From the NCBI GenBank assembly GCA_001971685.1, contig CP019326.1:2356001-2420000 (forward strand): DNA of 64,000 nucleotides. Direction: 5' to 3'. Below are positions 22,956-37,354 of the stretch, in pieces. The translations under genes and the position numbers were made by a program. How positions within the stretch are numbered: the first letter of the stretch is position 1; every line of letters begins with the position of its first letter. This DNA is from Halomonas sp. 1513. GTDB taxonomy: Bacteria > Pseudomonadota > Gammaproteobacteria > Pseudomonadales > Halomonadaceae. Below the pieces are notes generated by a model that was not told where the DNA came from, made no database searches, and saw only the letters and a list, made by a program, of their open reading frames with translations.

Positions 22956-23134
22956 GTTCACGAACCCTCGAAGAGCGTTGATAGGCCCGGCACGAATTGC
23001 CGGTAGCGCTAGATATCACCGCTTTTAGACCTGCGTCAACACTTTTCGAACAGCGTTTGACATCCTCACCATGACAGTTCACCGCGACTGTGCGACGCTG
23101 GCCGTTCGATCCCCTTCGCCACGAGGCTGCGCGC

Positions 23135-23764
23135 ATGATCGATTTCTGGACCTGGACCACCCCCAACGGCCGTAAGGTCTCGATTCTGCTCGAAGAGCTA
23201 GGACTCGATTACCGCACTCATGCGGTCGACCTCACCCAGGGCGAGCAGCACACCCCGGCGTTCCTCGCGGTCAGCCCCAACAACAAGATCCCCGCCCTGC
23301 GCGATGACGACACCGGCGTCACCCTGATGGAGTCGGGCGCCATCATGTACTACCTAGCCGAGCGCCATGGGCGTTTTATGCCCGCCGAGGGCGAGCCACG
23401 CTACCGGGTCATGGAGTGGCTGATGTGGCAGATGGGCGGTTTGGGGCCGATCCTCGGCCAGGCGCACCACTTCCTGCACTTCAACCCCGGCAAGGCGGCC
23501 TATGCCGAAGCGCGCTTCTTCGACGAGGCGCAGCGCCTCTATCGCGTGCTGGATACCCGCTTGAACGAGCGCAGCTACCTGGCCGGCGAATACTCCATTG
23601 CCGACATGGCGGTATGGCCGTGGGTGTCGCGCTTCGAGTGGCAGCGCATCGATCTCGACGCCTACCCTGCGGTCAAACGCTGGTATCTGGAGATCGCCGC
23701 CCGGCCGGCGGTGCAGCGCGGCTATCACAGCCCGCACAAGGTCAACGATATTCCACTGCCCTGA
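23135..23764 (+). CDS. Glutathione S-transferase, YfcG/Nu-class-like
   Basis: A 209-residue cytoplasmic GST. The thioredoxin-like N-domain has TTPNGRKVSILLEELGL, matching the TPNG motif of YfcG-type GSTs, whose active residues are Thr and Asn rather than Tyr or Ser. NNKIPALRD and LMESGAIMYYLAE bind glutathione. The C-domain ends with ERSYLAGEYSIADMAVWPW. Known YfcG enzymes act as glutathione-dependent disulfide reductases. The start MIDFWTW is chosen because upstream codons are not GST-like. The structured repeat lies just downstream. Confidence 0.9.
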   Translation: MIDFWTWTTPNGRKVSILLEELGLDYRTHAVDLTQGEQHTPAFLAVSPNNKIPALRDDDTGVTLMESGAIMYYLAERHGRFMPAEGEPRYRVMEWLMWQMGGLGPILGQAHHFLHFNPGKAAYAEARFFDEAQRLYRVLDTRLNERSYLAGEYSIADMAVWPWVSRFEWQRIDLDAYPAVKRWYLEIAARPAVQRGYHSPHKVNDIPLP

Positions 23765-23786
23765 CTCGCGCGTTGCAGCCGCTGTA

Positions 23787-23896
23787 GCGAGGAGCGCTGG
23801 CGGTAGGTCGAAGAGGAGGTTCTACGCCATGGATGGCGTAGGTAGCGCCCAGGGACGGGTTTACAGCGCCTCCTCGTAGGCCTACCGCCGGATCAG
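23787..23896 (+). repeat. 110-bp structured repeat, copy 1
   Basis: Aligns without gaps to 35188-35297 (about 85 of 110 positions identical by hand). The plus strand folds as an outer stem GGCGGTAGG / CCTACCGCC, a second stem GAGGAGG / CCTCCTC, a hairpin CTACGCCA-TGGA-TGGCGTAG and a small hairpin CCC-AGGGAC-GGG. Differences from copy 2 keep the pairing in most cases. Both hairpins display an ANGGA sequence. It lies between the GST gene and thiI, both on the plus strand, and I see no T-run terminator or ORF belonging to it. Confidence 0.85.
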
Positions 23897-24008
23897 CTCC
23901 GAGCGGGGCTGCTATCTGCAGTGGTCTCAGGCCCTTGGCGAGCCAACTGGCGATGCGTGGCAGCGGATTGCTACCATGACGCGTTCGTGTCTCCTCGAAG
24001 TGAAGCGC

Positions 24009-25481
24009 ATGCGCTATCGAATCAAGCTGTTTGGCGAAATCACCATCAAGTCCCGCGCGGTGCGCAAGGAGATGGTGCGCTGCCTGCGCACCAATATCCG
24101 CAATAGCCTGCGCCACCTCGACACGCGGGTGCGGGTCGCCGACCACTGGGACGCGCTGGAGGTTCGCCCCTCGGCGCATCTTGATGACGCGGCACATGCC
24201 GCCGTCGAAGCCAGCCTGACGCGTATCTCCGGCATCCAGGAAATCCAGGTGGTGGAGGCGTATCCCTTTACCGATTTCGCCACCACCGCCGAGCGGCTGG
24301 TAGCGCTATGGCGCGACGTACTGCCCGGCCGGCGCTTTCGGGTCAGCGTCAAGCGCCGCGGCCGGCACGACTTCGGCTCGGAAGATCTCGAACGCTACCT
24401 GGGCAGCGCCCTGCTCGAGGCCGTGCCCAGCGCGCGGGTCGATCTGCGCCATGCCGAGTTCGACGTGGGCCTGGAGCTCAAGGATCAGCGCCTGCTGCTG
24501 GTCAGCCGGCGCCTGGCAGGCCTCGGTGGCTACCCGCTGGGCACCCAGGGCCAGGCGCTGGCGCTGATCTCGGGCGGCTTCGATTCGCCGGTGGCCGCCT
24601 GGCGGCTGCTGCGCCGCGGGCTCAAGACCCACTTCCTGTTCTTCAATCTCGGTGGGCCGGCCCACGAGCAAGGCGTACGCGAGGTCACCCACCACCTCTG
24701 GCAGCAGTACAGCGCCTCGCACCGGGTCAACTTCATCAGCGTACCCTTCGGTGGCGTGGTCGACGAGATCCATCGCCGAGTGCCGGCCGGCCTGGCCGGG
24801 GTGGTGCTCAAGCGCATGATGCTGCGCGCCGCCAACCGGGTCGCCGCCCGAGCGCGGATCCCCGCGCTGGTCACCGGCGACGCCTTGGCCCAGGTCTCGA
24901 GCCAGAGCCTCGTTAACCTGGGGCTGATCGATGCGGTCAGCGAGCGACCGATCCTGCGTCCGCTGATCGCCAGCGACAAGCAGACGATCATTGCCGACGC
25001 CCGCCGCATCGGCACCGCCGCCTACGCCGAACGGCTCCCCGAGTACTGCGGCGTGATCTCGAACCGCCCCCACGTGCGCCCCAGCCCGGCGCAGCTCGAG
25101 GCCGCCGAGGCGGGCTTCGATCAGGCGGTGCTCGATGCCGCCATCGCCGCCGCCAAGATGACGCGCAGCGACCGCCTGCTGGAGAGCGCCCCTGTGCTGG
25201 GAGAGATCGACGAGATCGCCACGCCGCGCGCACTGGCCGAGGCCGGCGACGCCACCGTGATCGATATTCGCCACCCCGAGGAGCGCGACGCCGCGCCACT
25301 CCGCCTGCCCCGCGGCGAGCCGCTGGCAATCCCCTTCTTCGAACTGGCCCGGCGCGCCCCGAGGCTGCCGCGCCGACGCTACCTGCTCTACTGCGATCAG
25401 GGCGTGATGAGCCGCATGCAGGCGCTACAGCTCGCCGACCAGGGCCTCGACCACTTTGGCGTCTACCGAGGCGAGTCGTGA
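24009..25481 (+). CDS. thiI: tRNA 4-thiouridine synthase / thiazole-pathway sulfurtransferase ThiI
   Basis: A 490-residue cytoplasmic enzyme that adenylates U8 of tRNA and transfers persulfide sulfur; it also serves thiamine thiazole synthesis in enteric bacteria. Domains: N-terminal ferredoxin-like and THUMP (MRYRIKLFGEITIKS to about 170), PP-loop ATPase with SGGFDSPVA near 190, and a C-terminal rhodanese domain with the active Cys in YCDQGVMSRMQAL. The rhodanese domain is present, as in E. coli. The start at 24009 matches the family's N-terminus. Its stop overlaps the next gene's GTG start (GTGA). Confidence 0.95.
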   Translation: MRYRIKLFGEITIKSRAVRKEMVRCLRTNIRNSLRHLDTRVRVADHWDALEVRPSAHLDDAAHAAVEASLTRISGIQEIQVVEAYPFTDFATTAERLVALWRDVLPGRRFRVSVKRRGRHDFGSEDLERYLGSALLEAVPSARVDLRHAEFDVGLELKDQRLLLVSRRLAGLGGYPLGTQGQALALISGGFDSPVAAWRLLRRGLKTHFLFFNLGGPAHEQGVREVTHHLWQQYSASHRVNFISVPFGGVVDEIHRRVPAGLAGVVLKRMMLRAANRVAARARIPALVTGDALAQVSSQSLVNLGLIDAVSERPILRPLIASDKQTIIADARRIGTAAYAERLPEYCGVISNRPHVRPSPAQLEAAEAGFDQAVLDAAIAAAKMTRSDRLLESAPVLGEIDEIATPRALAEAGDATVIDIRHPEERDAAPLRLPRGEPLAIPFFELARRAPRLPRRRYLLYCDQGVMSRMQALQLADQGLDHFGVYRGES

Positions 25482-34135: not shown

Positions 34136-35143
34136 CTAGAAGCCCAGCGATTCGAGCCGGTCGGCCAGGTCATCGAGGATCTCGATGCCCTGCACGTCGG
34201 TGGGTAGCCACGGCAGGTGCGGCCTGGGCAGGTGGCTGAAGGCCTGGTCGATGCTGGTCAGGTAGACCGACTCCTGAGCACGCCGCGCGCGCAGGAAGTC
34301 ACCGTCGGCATCCTCGGGAATCACCCGGTTGACCAGGGTCCCGGCGACCGGAATCTTGACCGCCTCCAGCGCCTCGACGGCGCGCGCGGTCTCGAGGATC
34401 GGCAGCCGCTCCGGGGTCATCACGAACAGGAAGTTGCTCTGCTCGGGATCTTCGATGCGCCGACGCGCCTGATGGAACAGCCGCCGACGATTGAGCAGGG
34501 TCTGCGCCACGTCGCGGGTGCGTTCATCGAGATCACTGAAGGCGTCCTCCTGGGGATCATCGAAGGGCGTGGCCACGTCGCGGCCACGCTTGGGGGTCAG
34601 GTGCTTGAGCACCTTGCCAAGCTCCTCGGACTTGCGATTGTGCGCCAGCAGTCCATCGGTCCACGCCGCCATCGCCTCGGGCAGCGTCAGCAGTCGCAGG
34701 GTGTGGCCGGTGGGCGCGGTATCGAAGATGATCAGGTCGTAGGGGAGCTGGTCGTCGGTCATCAGCCGCGCCAGGCGCTCGAGCAGCGCCGCCTCCTGGG
34801 TGCCCGGCGACTGTCGGGTCAGGCGCATCTGGCGCTCGAGCTCCTTCATCATCTCCGGCGCGGCGTAGCGGCGCATCTGCTCGGTGACTCGCGCCAGGTG
34901 GGCCTCGACCTCGATATCGGGGTCGATCTCCATGGCGTCGAGGTTGGGCAGCAGGCGCCGTGGCGTATCGCTCAGCTCGCGGTCGAAGACATCGCCGAGG
35001 CTGTGTGCCGGGTCGGTCGAGACCACCAGCACGCGCCGTTCGCGACGCGCGGCGAGCACCGCCAGCGAGGCGGCCACGGTGGTCTTGCCCACCCCGCCCT
35101 TGCCGCCTACCCATAGCAGACGTTTCTGCAATAAAGCTTTCAT
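34136..35143 (-). CDS. ArsA/Get3-family ATPase
   Basis: A 335-residue soluble ATPase with P-loop GGKGGVGKTT (13-22), switch I DPAHSLGDVF and switch II FDTAPTGHTLRLL. It has a single ATPase domain and one copy, unlike tandem ArsA of arsenite pumps; no arsB or arsD is nearby. The Get3 CxxC zinc motif is not seen. It is the last of three minus-strand genes (cstA, CC-tailed protein, ArsA), separated from the second by the structured repeat. It may be a targeting or regulatory ATPase for a partner membrane or tail-exposed protein, which is speculative. Confidence 0.88.
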   Translation of the reverse strand: MKALLQKRLLWVGGKGGVGKTTVAASLAVLAARRERRVLVVSTDPAHSLGDVFDRELSDTPRRLLPNLDAMEIDPDIEVEAHLARVTEQMRRYAAPEMMKELERQMRLTRQSPGTQEAALLERLARLMTDDQLPYDLIIFDTAPTGHTLRLLTLPEAMAAWTDGLLAHNRKSEELGKVLKHLTPKRGRDVATPFDDPQEDAFSDLDERTRDVAQTLLNRRRLFHQARRRIEDPEQSNFLFVMTPERLPILETARAVEALEAVKIPVAGTLVNRVIPEDADGDFLRARRAQESVYLTSIDQAFSHLPRPHLPWLPTDVQGIEILDDLADRLESLGF

Positions 35144-35187
35144 CGTGCACTTATCCCAATGTCGCGAAGCTATCGCCAAGGCCGGCG

Positions 35188-35297
35188 GCGAGGGGCGCCG
35201 GGGACAAGCCGAAGAGGGGGTTCTAGACCAGGGATGGTCCAGGTAGCCCCCAGGGAGGGGTTCATGGCGCCCCCTCGAAGGCTTGTCGACGGATCAG
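35188..35297 (+). repeat. 110-bp structured repeat, copy 2
   Basis: Gapless partner of 23787-23896. On the plus strand the outer stem is GACAAGCC / GGCTTGTC with extra pairs, the second stem is GAGGGGG / CCCCCTC, and the hairpin CTAGACCA-GGGA-TGGTCCAG has one mismatch. The small hairpin CCC-AGGGAG-GGG keeps the AGGGA loop. It lies between the CC-tailed gene and the ArsA gene, both on the minus strand, so it would be antisense to that transcript if read in the same sense as copy 1. Confidence 0.85.
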
Positions 35298-35355
35298 CCT
35301 CGAGCACTCCCCCAAGCGAGGACCATGGCTCACTTTCGTGTGGAAACCGTCTGCG

Positions 35356-35658
35356 CTAGCAGCATCTGAAATGATCCAGCGGCGAGCGTTCCATCCCCAT
35401 GCGTGTGTGCCAGTCATGGAAACGTTCGAGCAGCAGCGGCTGGAGTTCGAGGGTGTAGTAGGCGGCCGGATTGGGCACCCCCATCATCTCGGAGAACACC
35501 AGCAGCATGAACAGGTCGTCCTCGTCGCGGCGGGCCCGGGCAATCGCCCCGCGATAGCGCGAGGAGTAGACCTCCTCGGCGAAGAAACGGGCCTGGCTCA
35601 GCCAGGCCCGTACTCTTTCGCGACGAGGATCATGACCGCTGTCATGATCGTCGTGCAT
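35356..35658 (-). CDS. Small CC-tailed protein (cory-CC-star-like)
   Basis: A 100-residue soluble protein. The N-terminal half is charged and helical; the distinctive part is FSEMMGVPNPAAYYTLELQP followed by FHDWHTRMGMERSPLDHF and a C-terminal RCC just before the stop. The Cys-Cys end at the last two residues and this GVPNP-YYTLEL pattern recall the family named cory-CC-star, from memory and unverified. AGGAG lies 7 bases before the ATG. It starts 19 bases after cstA and is followed by the ArsA ATPase gene, so a functional link of terminal Cys pair and ATPase is possible. Confidence 0.7.
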   Translation of the reverse strand: MHDDHDSGHDPRRERVRAWLSQARFFAEEVYSSRYRGAIARARRDEDDLFMLLVFSEMMGVPNPAAYYTLELQPLLLERFHDWHTRMGMERSPLDHFRCC

Positions 35659-35677
35659 ACATCGCTCCTAGGTAACG

Positions 35678-37354
35678 TCAGTCACCCTGTTCGGCCATTT
35701 CCGCGCGGGTGCGCTTGAGCGCCGCCGCACACTCCATGGCCACCATGATCGCGGCAATCAACACCACGATATCCAGGAACAGCAGGAAGTAGTTACCGTC
35801 GTTGAAGAAGGTGCGCAGCTGGATGAGCAGCGCGGCGATGGTCATCACCAGCAGGAAGCACAGCGGCACCAGGGTGTACCACATGGGACGACGCAGGCGC
35901 ACCAGCATCACCGTGATCACCAGCAGGGTCAGACCCGCCAGCAACTGGTTGGTGGTGCCGAACAGCGGCCAGATGATCATGCCGCCGGTACCGTCGGCGC
36001 CGCCGGCACCGAAGGCCAGCAGCAGGCAGCTACCCACCGCCAGCAGGGTGGCCGGGGCCGACTTCTTCATCCACGGCTGGTTATAGATATCGCCCCACTC
36101 CTGGAAAATATAGCGTTGCAGGCGCAGGCCGGTATCCATGGTGGTGCCGGCGAACAGCGCCGCCATGACCGTCAGCAGGGTCGCTGCGGTGGCTTCCGGC
36201 AGGCCCAGGCCGTTGTGGATCATGAAGGCACCGCCCTCGACGAAGGCATTCACGCCACCGGCCCCGAAGGCGGTGTACATGGCTTGCCAATCTGCCAGGC
36301 TGGCGAAACCGGCCGTCGCGGCGAGGATCGCGGCCAGGGCCAGCATGCCTTCACCGACGGCACCGAAGTAGCCGACGAAGCGCGCGTCGGTTTCCTTGTT
36401 GAGCTGCTTGGAAGTGGTGCCCGACGACACCAGGCCATGGAAGCCCGAGATGGCACCGCAGGCGATGGTCACGAACAGCAGCGGCAGCATCGATGGCGTT
36501 CCTGCCGGTACGTCGCTGTTGACCATGGGCGCCACAATGCTCGGGTTGAGCAGCACAATGGCGCCGTAGAGGATGATCAGACCGATGAACAGTTGCAGAC
36601 CATTGATGTAGTCACGCGGCTGCAGCAGCACCCACACCGGCAGCAGCGAGGCGATGGCGGCATAGCCGAACAGGATCAGGATCCATACCGCGTTACCGGA
36701 GAAGCCGGCCACTTCGGCAGGCATCTGGATCGGCACCGACGGCCCAATGCCGATCAGCGCGTAAAGCGCCACGACGCCGATCACCGAGACCACCGGCAGG
36801 CTGAGAATCCGGCGGTAGATCAGCTGACCAATGATCAGTGCCACCAGGATCGCGCCCCACACCGGCACCACCGCGCTGGAGAAGTTCATCATCAGTCCGG
36901 CGATGACCACCGCGAACACCGCGTTGACCATCAGCAGCACCAGGAAGATCACGATCATGAAGATGCTGCGCGCACGGGTACCGACCACGTCGCCGGTGAG
37001 TGCACCCACCGACTTGGCCTTGTTGCGCACGCTGGCCCAGATGGCGCCGAAATCGTGCACCCCGGCGAAGAAGATGGTACCGAACACCACCCACAGGAAG
37101 GCCGGCAACCAGCCCCAGATCACCGCAATGGCCGGCCCCACGATGGGCGCAGCCCCGGCGACCGAGGTGAAGTGGTGGCCCCACAGGATAAAGCGATTGG
37201 TGGGCACGTAGTCGACACCGTCCTCGAACTCGTGGGCCGGCGTCTTGAAGTCAGGATCGAGGCGATAGATCTTCTCGGCGATGAACTTGGAGTACACGAA
37301 GTACCCCCCGGCCATCCCGGCAAGACCTAGCACCAGCAGAACGATTGCACTCAT
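35678..37354 (-). CDS. cstA: Carbon-starvation protein A family transporter
   Basis: A 558-residue inner-membrane transporter with about 15 hydrophobic segments. The family signature RFILWGHHFTSVAGAAPIVG is at about residues 54-73. It is shorter than E. coli CstA (about 700 residues), the C-terminal region being reduced. Characterised members import pyruvate or peptides. The usual YbdD/YjiX small partner is not present; the CC-tailed protein takes that position. The upstream AT-rich 120 bases contain an inverted repeat that may be regulatory. Confidence 0.92.
   Translation of the reverse strand: MSAIVLLVLGLAGMAGGYFVYSKFIAEKIYRLDPDFKTPAHEFEDGVDYVPTNRFILWGHHFTSVAGAAPIVGPAIAVIWGWLPAFLWVVFGTIFFAGVHDFGAIWASVRNKAKSVGALTGDVVGTRARSIFMIVIFLVLLMVNAVFAVVIAGLMMNFSSAVVPVWGAILVALIIGQLIYRRILSLPVVSVIGVVALYALIGIGPSVPIQMPAEVAGFSGNAVWILILFGYAAIASLLPVWVLLQPRDYINGLQLFIGLIILYGAIVLLNPSIVAPMVNSDVPAGTPSMLPLLFVTIACGAISGFHGLVSSGTTSKQLNKETDARFVGYFGAVGEGMLALAAILAATAGFASLADWQAMYTAFGAGGVNAFVEGGAFMIHNGLGLPEATAATLLTVMAALFAGTTMDTGLRLQRYIFQEWGDIYNQPWMKKSAPATLLAVGSCLLLAFGAGGADGTGGMIIWPLFGTTNQLLAGLTLLVITVMLVRLRRPMWYTLVPLCFLLVMTIAALLIQLRTFFNDGNYFLLFLDIVVLIAAIMVAMECAAALKRTRAEMAEQGD

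Follow-up and report, generated by a model that had tools for sequence, protein, structure and literature searches.

The window analysed here, a stretch of 64,000 nucleotides from Halomonas sp. 1513, contains two copies of an intergenic repeat. Copy 1 is located between a glutathione S-transferase-like gene and thiI and is sense to both, and copy 2 has an ArsA-type gene on one side and a small open reading frame (ORF) on the other and is antisense to both. The features are given below by window position, together with the matches to R1, a covariance model that was built from 31 copies of the repeat; stems and hairpins are as predicted.

23135..23764, + strand: gene upstream of copy 1, glutathione S-transferase-like (Pfam GST_N/GST_C; the ORF may start at 23090)
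23777..23908, + strand: copy 1, full covariance-model span (R1 match G000:C1:2379777-2379908:+, 137.4 bits; core 23787-23896)
23797..23809, + strand: copy 1, outer stem 5' arm, pairs with 23879-23891 (compensatory changes at 23803, 23804 and 23806)
23813..23820, + strand: copy 1, inner stem 5' arm, pairs with 23868-23875 (double change 23817/23871)
23822..23841, + strand: copy 1, hairpin 1, loop AUGGA at 23829-23833 (UGGA unpaired with probability 1.0)
23842..23864, + strand: copy 1, hairpin 2, loop AGGGA at 23851-23855 (unpaired with probability of at least 0.99)
23868..23875, + strand: copy 1, inner stem 3' arm (from the fold and the comparison with copy 2)
23879..23891, + strand: copy 1, outer stem 3' arm (from the fold and the comparison with copy 2)
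23976..25481, + strand: gene downstream of copy 1, ThiI (Pfam ThiI, THUMP)
34136..35143, - strand: ArsA-type ATPase gene with its 5' end towards copy 2 (Pfam ArsA_ATPase)
35178..35309, + strand: copy 2, full covariance-model span (R1 match G000:C1:2391178-2391309:+, 120.6 bits; core 35188-35297)
35223..35242, + strand: copy 2, hairpin 1, loop AGGGA at 35230-35234 (placed by gapless alignment; GGA unpaired with probability of at least 0.96)
35243..35265, + strand: copy 2, hairpin 2, loop AGGGA at 35252-35256 (placed by gapless alignment; GGA unpaired with probability of at least 0.82)
35356..35658, - strand: small ORF with its 3' end towards copy 2 (no Pfam match; directly 3' of the cstA-like gene)
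35678..37354, - strand: cstA-like gene (Pfam CstA)

The original prediction described a repeat pair that aligns over 110 bases without a gap, with about 25 differences and at least six double changes that preserve pairing. The gapless alignment of 23787-23896 with 35188-35297 was borne out, exactly 25 differences were counted over the 110 bases, and the six double changes listed are present: three in the outer stem (23803/23885, 23804/23884 and 23806/23882), one in the inner stem (23817/23871) and two in the hairpin (23825/23838 and 23826/23837). The predicted fold of copy 1 has 47 pairs over 23777-23908; when copy 2 is placed on this fold, 27 pairs are unchanged, 8 are preserved through double changes and 4 through single changes, and 8 are broken. 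Compared with 200 dinucleotide shuffles and including 10-nt flanks, the folding z-score is -5.8 for copy 1 and -3.2 for copy 2. In copy 2, the shared fold is the centroid only, and the best single-sequence fold differs and lacks hairpin 2 as drawn.

The repeats are real, but they are not a pair. BLAST with copy 1 listed 40 copies in the 4.13-Mb genome, and R1 detected 79 places at E ≤ 0.001; at E ≤ 1 it returned 85 rows, of which the 6 beyond the 79 are opposite-strand shadows of counted copies. The window repeats belong to a family that numbers about 80 copies, scattered just behind genes in this Halomonas-like bacterium. Four genus relatives carry 80, 80, 97 and 60 R1 copies, and R1 matches were obtained in 15 of 29 genomes including our own, i.e. 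in 14 of 28 relatives. Across the order, R1 matches at E ≤ 1e-4 occur in 90 of 293 genomes, ours among them, where no more than 11 candidates were scored in each. The exact core motif occurs in at least 118 stretches of a database scan, and the 80 loci listed belong to Halomonas, Billgrantia, Vreelandella, Salinicola, Onishia and Chromohalobacter, which are genera of the Halomonadaceae. A phage origin was rejected on the basis of 50,697 phage records, none of which matched the element, and the plasmid search found it in one record only, a Halomonas record of 1.8 Mb. Among the titles and abstract openings listed for Halomonas with palindromic repeats, MITE, CsrA or small RNA, for CsrA with repetitive extragenic palindromes and for CsrA sponges, none reports such an element, and a literature search on Pseudomonas and Marinobacter palindromes gave no paper. 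The excerpt of one article gives the CsrA sequence for H. hydrothermalis and mentions no repeat (PMC12889724).

That the element is conserved, structured and non-coding, as originally proposed, was open to two objections, namely lack of covariation in other copies and absence from relatives; both were checked, covariation proved strong and relatives carry the element. In the 31 copies, 98.7% of the cells are paired and compensatory double changes occur in 17 of 34 pairs, compared to a mean of 6.6 after shuffling, which none of 500 shuffles reached, and to 2-4 for slid structures. In 54 order-wide rows, 1583 cells are Watson-Crick pairs, compared to 822 after shuffling, and most stem pairs show all four Watson-Crick types. 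Two opposite-strand shadows in alignment A4 and one in alignment A3 had been removed before counting, together with duplicates (A4 from 69 to 60 rows). Judged by these comparisons, the structure of the element is under selection. Chance similarity or a coding-sequence remnant is refuted by the 79 copies, the covariation and the intergenic position of all 72 own copies examined, and retains practically no probability.

Covariation in a repeat can also be read in terms of DNA. Selfish palindromes of the REP/BIME, ERIC or MITE kind could be spread by transposase or recombination and tolerated only behind stops, and template switching at replication forks would correct one arm from the other. REP/BIME, REPIN and ERIC palindromes are high-copy, structured and intergenic and are found behind genes, and the Halomonas element is likewise dispersed, intergenic and near stop codons; ERIC resembles it in size and location only. 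The wobble pairs bear on this reading. When constant wobble and loop-closing pairs are left out, G·T exceeds A·C pairs by 47:11 in 60 own rows, 68:18 in 89 Halomonadaceae rows and 50:7 in 54 order-wide rows, with the caveat that covariance searches favour G-U pairs. Counted per column, the excess is 17 versus 2 in the Halomonadaceae set and 15 versus 1 in the order-wide set; in the own-genome set alone it is not significant (10 versus 4 columns, p = 0.18). In 31 rows that were found by BLAST or in the window, and hence without the covariance model, the ratio is 29:6, with 13 of the 29 in one column. Antisense copies show the same tendency (8:2) but are too few to weigh. Because DNA hairpins and arm correction should yield equal numbers of both mispairs, the excess of G·T over A·C points to RNA of the + strand, and the palindrome reading offers no reason for it.

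A second feature for which palindromes offer no reason is the nature of the loops. Both hairpins close on an ANGGA loop, mostly of the six-base form ANGGAN, and these loops are constant although the stems vary, which is the reverse of terminal inverted repeats. ANGGA is present in the hairpin 1 loop of 58 of 60 own rows, equally often in the hairpin 2 loop, and in both loops of 56/60 own, 81/89 Halomonadaceae and 48/54 order-wide rows, where rows with an inserted module were scored by the module's own hairpin. The GGA-to-GGA distance is 22-25 nt in the 56 own, 69 Halomonadaceae and 53 order-wide rows measured; this near-fixed spacing is likewise without a reason if the copies are selfish palindromes.

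According to excerpts from a review, CsrA/RsmE binds hairpins with an ANGGAN hexaloop, with the SELEX consensus RUACARGGAUGU, and the CsrA dimer bridges sites that are 10-63 nt apart (PMC7652899). The elements present the corresponding arrangement of at least two hairpin ANGGA loops within this range of distances, and GGA is predicted to be unpaired in both window copies with a probability of at least 0.82. The SELEX core UACANGGANGUA occurs in 13 and the full consensus in 5 of the 54 order-wide rows. As modelled, the two-hairpin geometry is that of a CsrA/RsmA dimer site, and each family member probably folds as RNA into two hairpins that are shaped like CsrA docking sites. A single gene encodes CsrA in the own genome (G000:C1:560766-560921, 65 amino acids starting with MLILTRR); the protein aligns to solved CsrA over residues 1-59 and is present and intact. 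CsrA is also encoded in 28 of 28 relatives searched. Two observations argue against CsrA as the ligand: the hairpin 1 stem of 6-8 bp is longer than that of most SELEX hairpins, which have four or fewer contiguous pairs according to the same excerpts (PMC7652899), and 14 of the 28 relatives lack an R1 match though all of them encode CsrA. GGA in hairpin loops that are spaced for a CsrA dimer is also a feature of CsrB, CsrC, RsmX, RsmY and RsmZ; yet these are few dedicated sRNA genes with many sites, whereas the Halomonas elements have two sites per unit and about 80 units behind genes, and at the two window copies they show neither promoter nor terminator.

The original prediction did not recognise a named element; the copies are, however, related to a described RNA family, TwoAYGGAY (RF01731). 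At the gathering cut-off, Rfam reports tRNAs only over the window, and the other relaxed-E hits on the hairpins (miRNA precursors, Ysr224) fall well short of their cut-offs and were regarded as chance. In the own genome, RF01731 gives five weak matches at E ≤ 10 (E 0.8 to 4.4), all on R1 copies and on the same strand; the scores reach at most 22.9 bits, none above the gathering cut-off of 43 bits, and in this search 1 of 14 control genomes also matched, below cut-off. In 12 order genomes that were picked for having R1 matches, RF01731 matched all 12 (E ≤ 1), several at the same place and strand as R1, and exceeded the cut-off in six, while none of 14 controls matched. At relaxed thresholds, it also matches two order-wide loci with 35.1 and 31 bits (cut-off 43). 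Conversely, R1 gives 12 matches across 20 RF01731-derived loci, not at every locus, with E = 2.9e-8 at L317. A class-wide search, with at most 7 candidates scored per genome and the own genome outside the set, found RF01731 in 23 of 369 genomes, 15 of them above cut-off.

Because R1 recognises RF01731 members in relatives and RF01731 recognises R1 members there, the Halomonas elements are, by sequence and structure comparison, homologous to TwoAYGGAY RNA. They share the outer stem that encloses two side-by-side hairpins with GGA loops, and this stem is supported by covariation. They differ in score, in loop 2 and in 18 inserted modules that overlap the 79 copies. Loop 1 reads AUGGAU in 44 of 60 own rows and loop 2 is mostly AGGGAN, so that a strict AYGGAY is not present in both loops. 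The score below cut-off and the deviating loop 2 place the elements in a TwoAYGGAY-related subfamily rather than among the members by Rfam's rule. In the excerpts consulted, Weinberg et al. (2010) graded TwoAYGGAY as probably an RNA and probably not cis-regulatory, and listed human gut, gamma-Proteobacteria and Clostridiales as sources (PMC2864571). This grading counts against the reading favoured below; the Rfam type, by contrast, is Cis-reg. CsrA binding was proposed for TwoAYGGAY by Gardner and Eldai on the basis of the loop motif, as stated in an excerpt of their article (PMC4333381).

The genomic context was determined with a codon-usage ORF caller for the 72 of 79 own copies with flanks, all of which are intergenic. 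Relative to the element, the strands of the upstream and downstream neighbours are same/same in 42, opposite/opposite in 17, opposite/same in 8 and same/opposite in 5 cases. Copies between tandem genes are nearer to the stop codon than to the next start in 52 of 59 cases (p = 1.4e-9), and more often sense than antisense (42 versus 17, p = 0.0015), window copy 2 being among the antisense ones. Where the upstream gene is codirectional (47 copies), a median of 37 nt separates its stop from the element, and for 44 of the 47 this spacing falls between 10 and 80 nt, with 12 nt trimmed from the match before measuring. The placement would also suit a 3'-UTR stem-loop whose role is to stop 3' exonucleases or to promote Rho-dependent 3'-end formation, with GGA serving another protein or only loop stability, and so would the stable fold and the lack of an intrinsic terminator signature at both window copies. 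Such a plain barrier, however, needs no ANGGA loops at a near-fixed distance, and 17 of 72 copies are antisense to both neighbours, which renders this explanation improbable. Neither an intrinsic terminator nor, in a crude scan, a sigma-70-like promoter was found at either window copy, and both assignments were rejected.

The context also contains observations that speak against CsrA docking on transcript 3' ends: 8 of 72 copies are located between divergent genes, 17 of 59 tandem copies are antisense, and window copy 2 is antisense and without promoter signature, yet strongly conserved. In other genomes, a cruder, length-only ORF caller has 10 of 29 single loci overlap an ORF from within, which would point in the same direction, and finds a codirectional upstream ORF at 19 of 29.

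The turnover of sites lends support to the reading as selfish palindromes. When 27 copies of relatives were compared with the flanks of 72 own copies, 16 could be assigned to the site of an own copy, three of them through a single flank, whereas 11 had no flank match. At these orthologous sites, which correspond to 11 own sites, the orientation is the same in 7 of 16 comparisons and opposite in 8, with one not called. The copy 1 site carries an element in the same orientation with an internal deletion in relative G001, elements in opposite orientation in G003 and G004 and a remnant in G002; the 4 genus relatives all carry copy 2 in unchanged orientation. Mere in-place inversion was rejected, as remnants of a second, opposite copy are present at some sites, and these remnants make loss and gain of neighbouring copies an equally good account. 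Arm remnants on the opposite strand were seen beside an intact copy at L011 (1836203) and L017 (1695539), where the relative is intact in the other orientation.

Against this turnover stands the constraint on the copies that remain. In 11 same-orientation orthologous comparisons, in which part of the flank is coding, differences affect 38 of 1223 positions within the element, where 0 gap columns occur, and 220 of 1827 positions in the flanks, where 137 gap columns come in addition. As the element is less changed than its flanks, elements that stay appear to be held by selection, though sites come and go. The copy ends are ragged and fade gradually, and no clear target-site duplication was seen in the strongly diverged flanks, which may count against a transposed palindrome. 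A RAYT-type transposase (PF01797, Y1_Tnp) has no match in the one own genome, while 5 of 14 control genomes match, and RAYT-driven REP elements were rejected for this reason. The absence of RAYT, the constant loops, the variable stems and the G·T bias separate the Halomonas element from REP/BIME, REPIN and ERIC, and we consider its origin as a selfish palindrome unlikely.

Some copies contain an extra module of 83-87 nt within hairpin 1, which would suit a mobile palindrome. In 13 aligned cases it resides in the hairpin 1 loop and brings its own hairpin, in most of them with an AUGGAU loop. A module that moves independently was rejected, because 18 of 18 own matches of the 83-nt module are within or overlap R1 copies, as in L120:1034-1116. 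At the copy 1 site, the long form is present in G003 and the short form in G004. A different module of 57-58 nt occupies the same loop in L222, L213 and L184 (Vreelandella) and in L179 (Halomonas ventosae), and its ATGGAT hairpin corresponds to the opposite strand.

Taken together, we favour a dispersed, structured 3'-end RNA element, divergent from but related to TwoAYGGAY, that docks CsrA, and assign this reading a probability of roughly 0.65. As most elements follow a stop codon at 10-80 nt, transcripts of the upstream gene would extend beyond the stop into the element. The RNA is then predicted, by comparison and folding, to form a long closing stem that presents two side-by-side ANGGA hairpins with a GGA-GGA distance of 22-25 nt, and, in line with known CsrA recognition, a CsrA/RsmA homodimer could clamp both loops, one per RNA-binding face. 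About 80 such two-site elements per genome would represent distributed CsrA docking sites. The family might titrate CsrA in proportion to bulk transcription, and/or CsrA on the element might alter how stable the host mRNA is or how its 3' end is processed. More tentatively, and with odds that we rate below even, a proliferating RNA repeat might make about 80 transcript 3' ends act together as a CsrA sponge and regulon that is decentralised and spans the genome.

TwoAYGGAY, which is without established function, has a high-copy relative behind genes here, and rows from 8 families of the order (alignment A3) retain the modelled CsrA-dimer geometry. If CsrA docking is correct, ordinary transcripts can share in the titration of CsrA, and sites of post-transcriptional regulation can proliferate in the manner of repeats. 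If the sponge also exists, CsrA availability would be set by the summed mRNA 3' ends and not by dedicated sRNAs alone, CsrA sites would be gained and lost like REP elements, and the orphan TwoAYGGAY would gain a function across the order.

The strongly conserved copy 2 adjoins the small ORF behind the cstA-like gene (window 35178-37354); cstA is named in the account of CsrA targets in excerpts from a review (PMC7652899). Outside Halomonadaceae, 24 pairs of opposite-strand elements with a separation below 400 bp occur among the matches listed, and all 24 are divergent ('- then +'), a number that was counted by eye and in which some loci may be orthologous (L072, L074, L292, L294, L296, L297, L301, L304, L309, L311, L319, L323 and L348 are included). 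Within Halomonadaceae, two opposite-strand pairs are convergent, one in the own genome (1191766/1191939) and one at L220.
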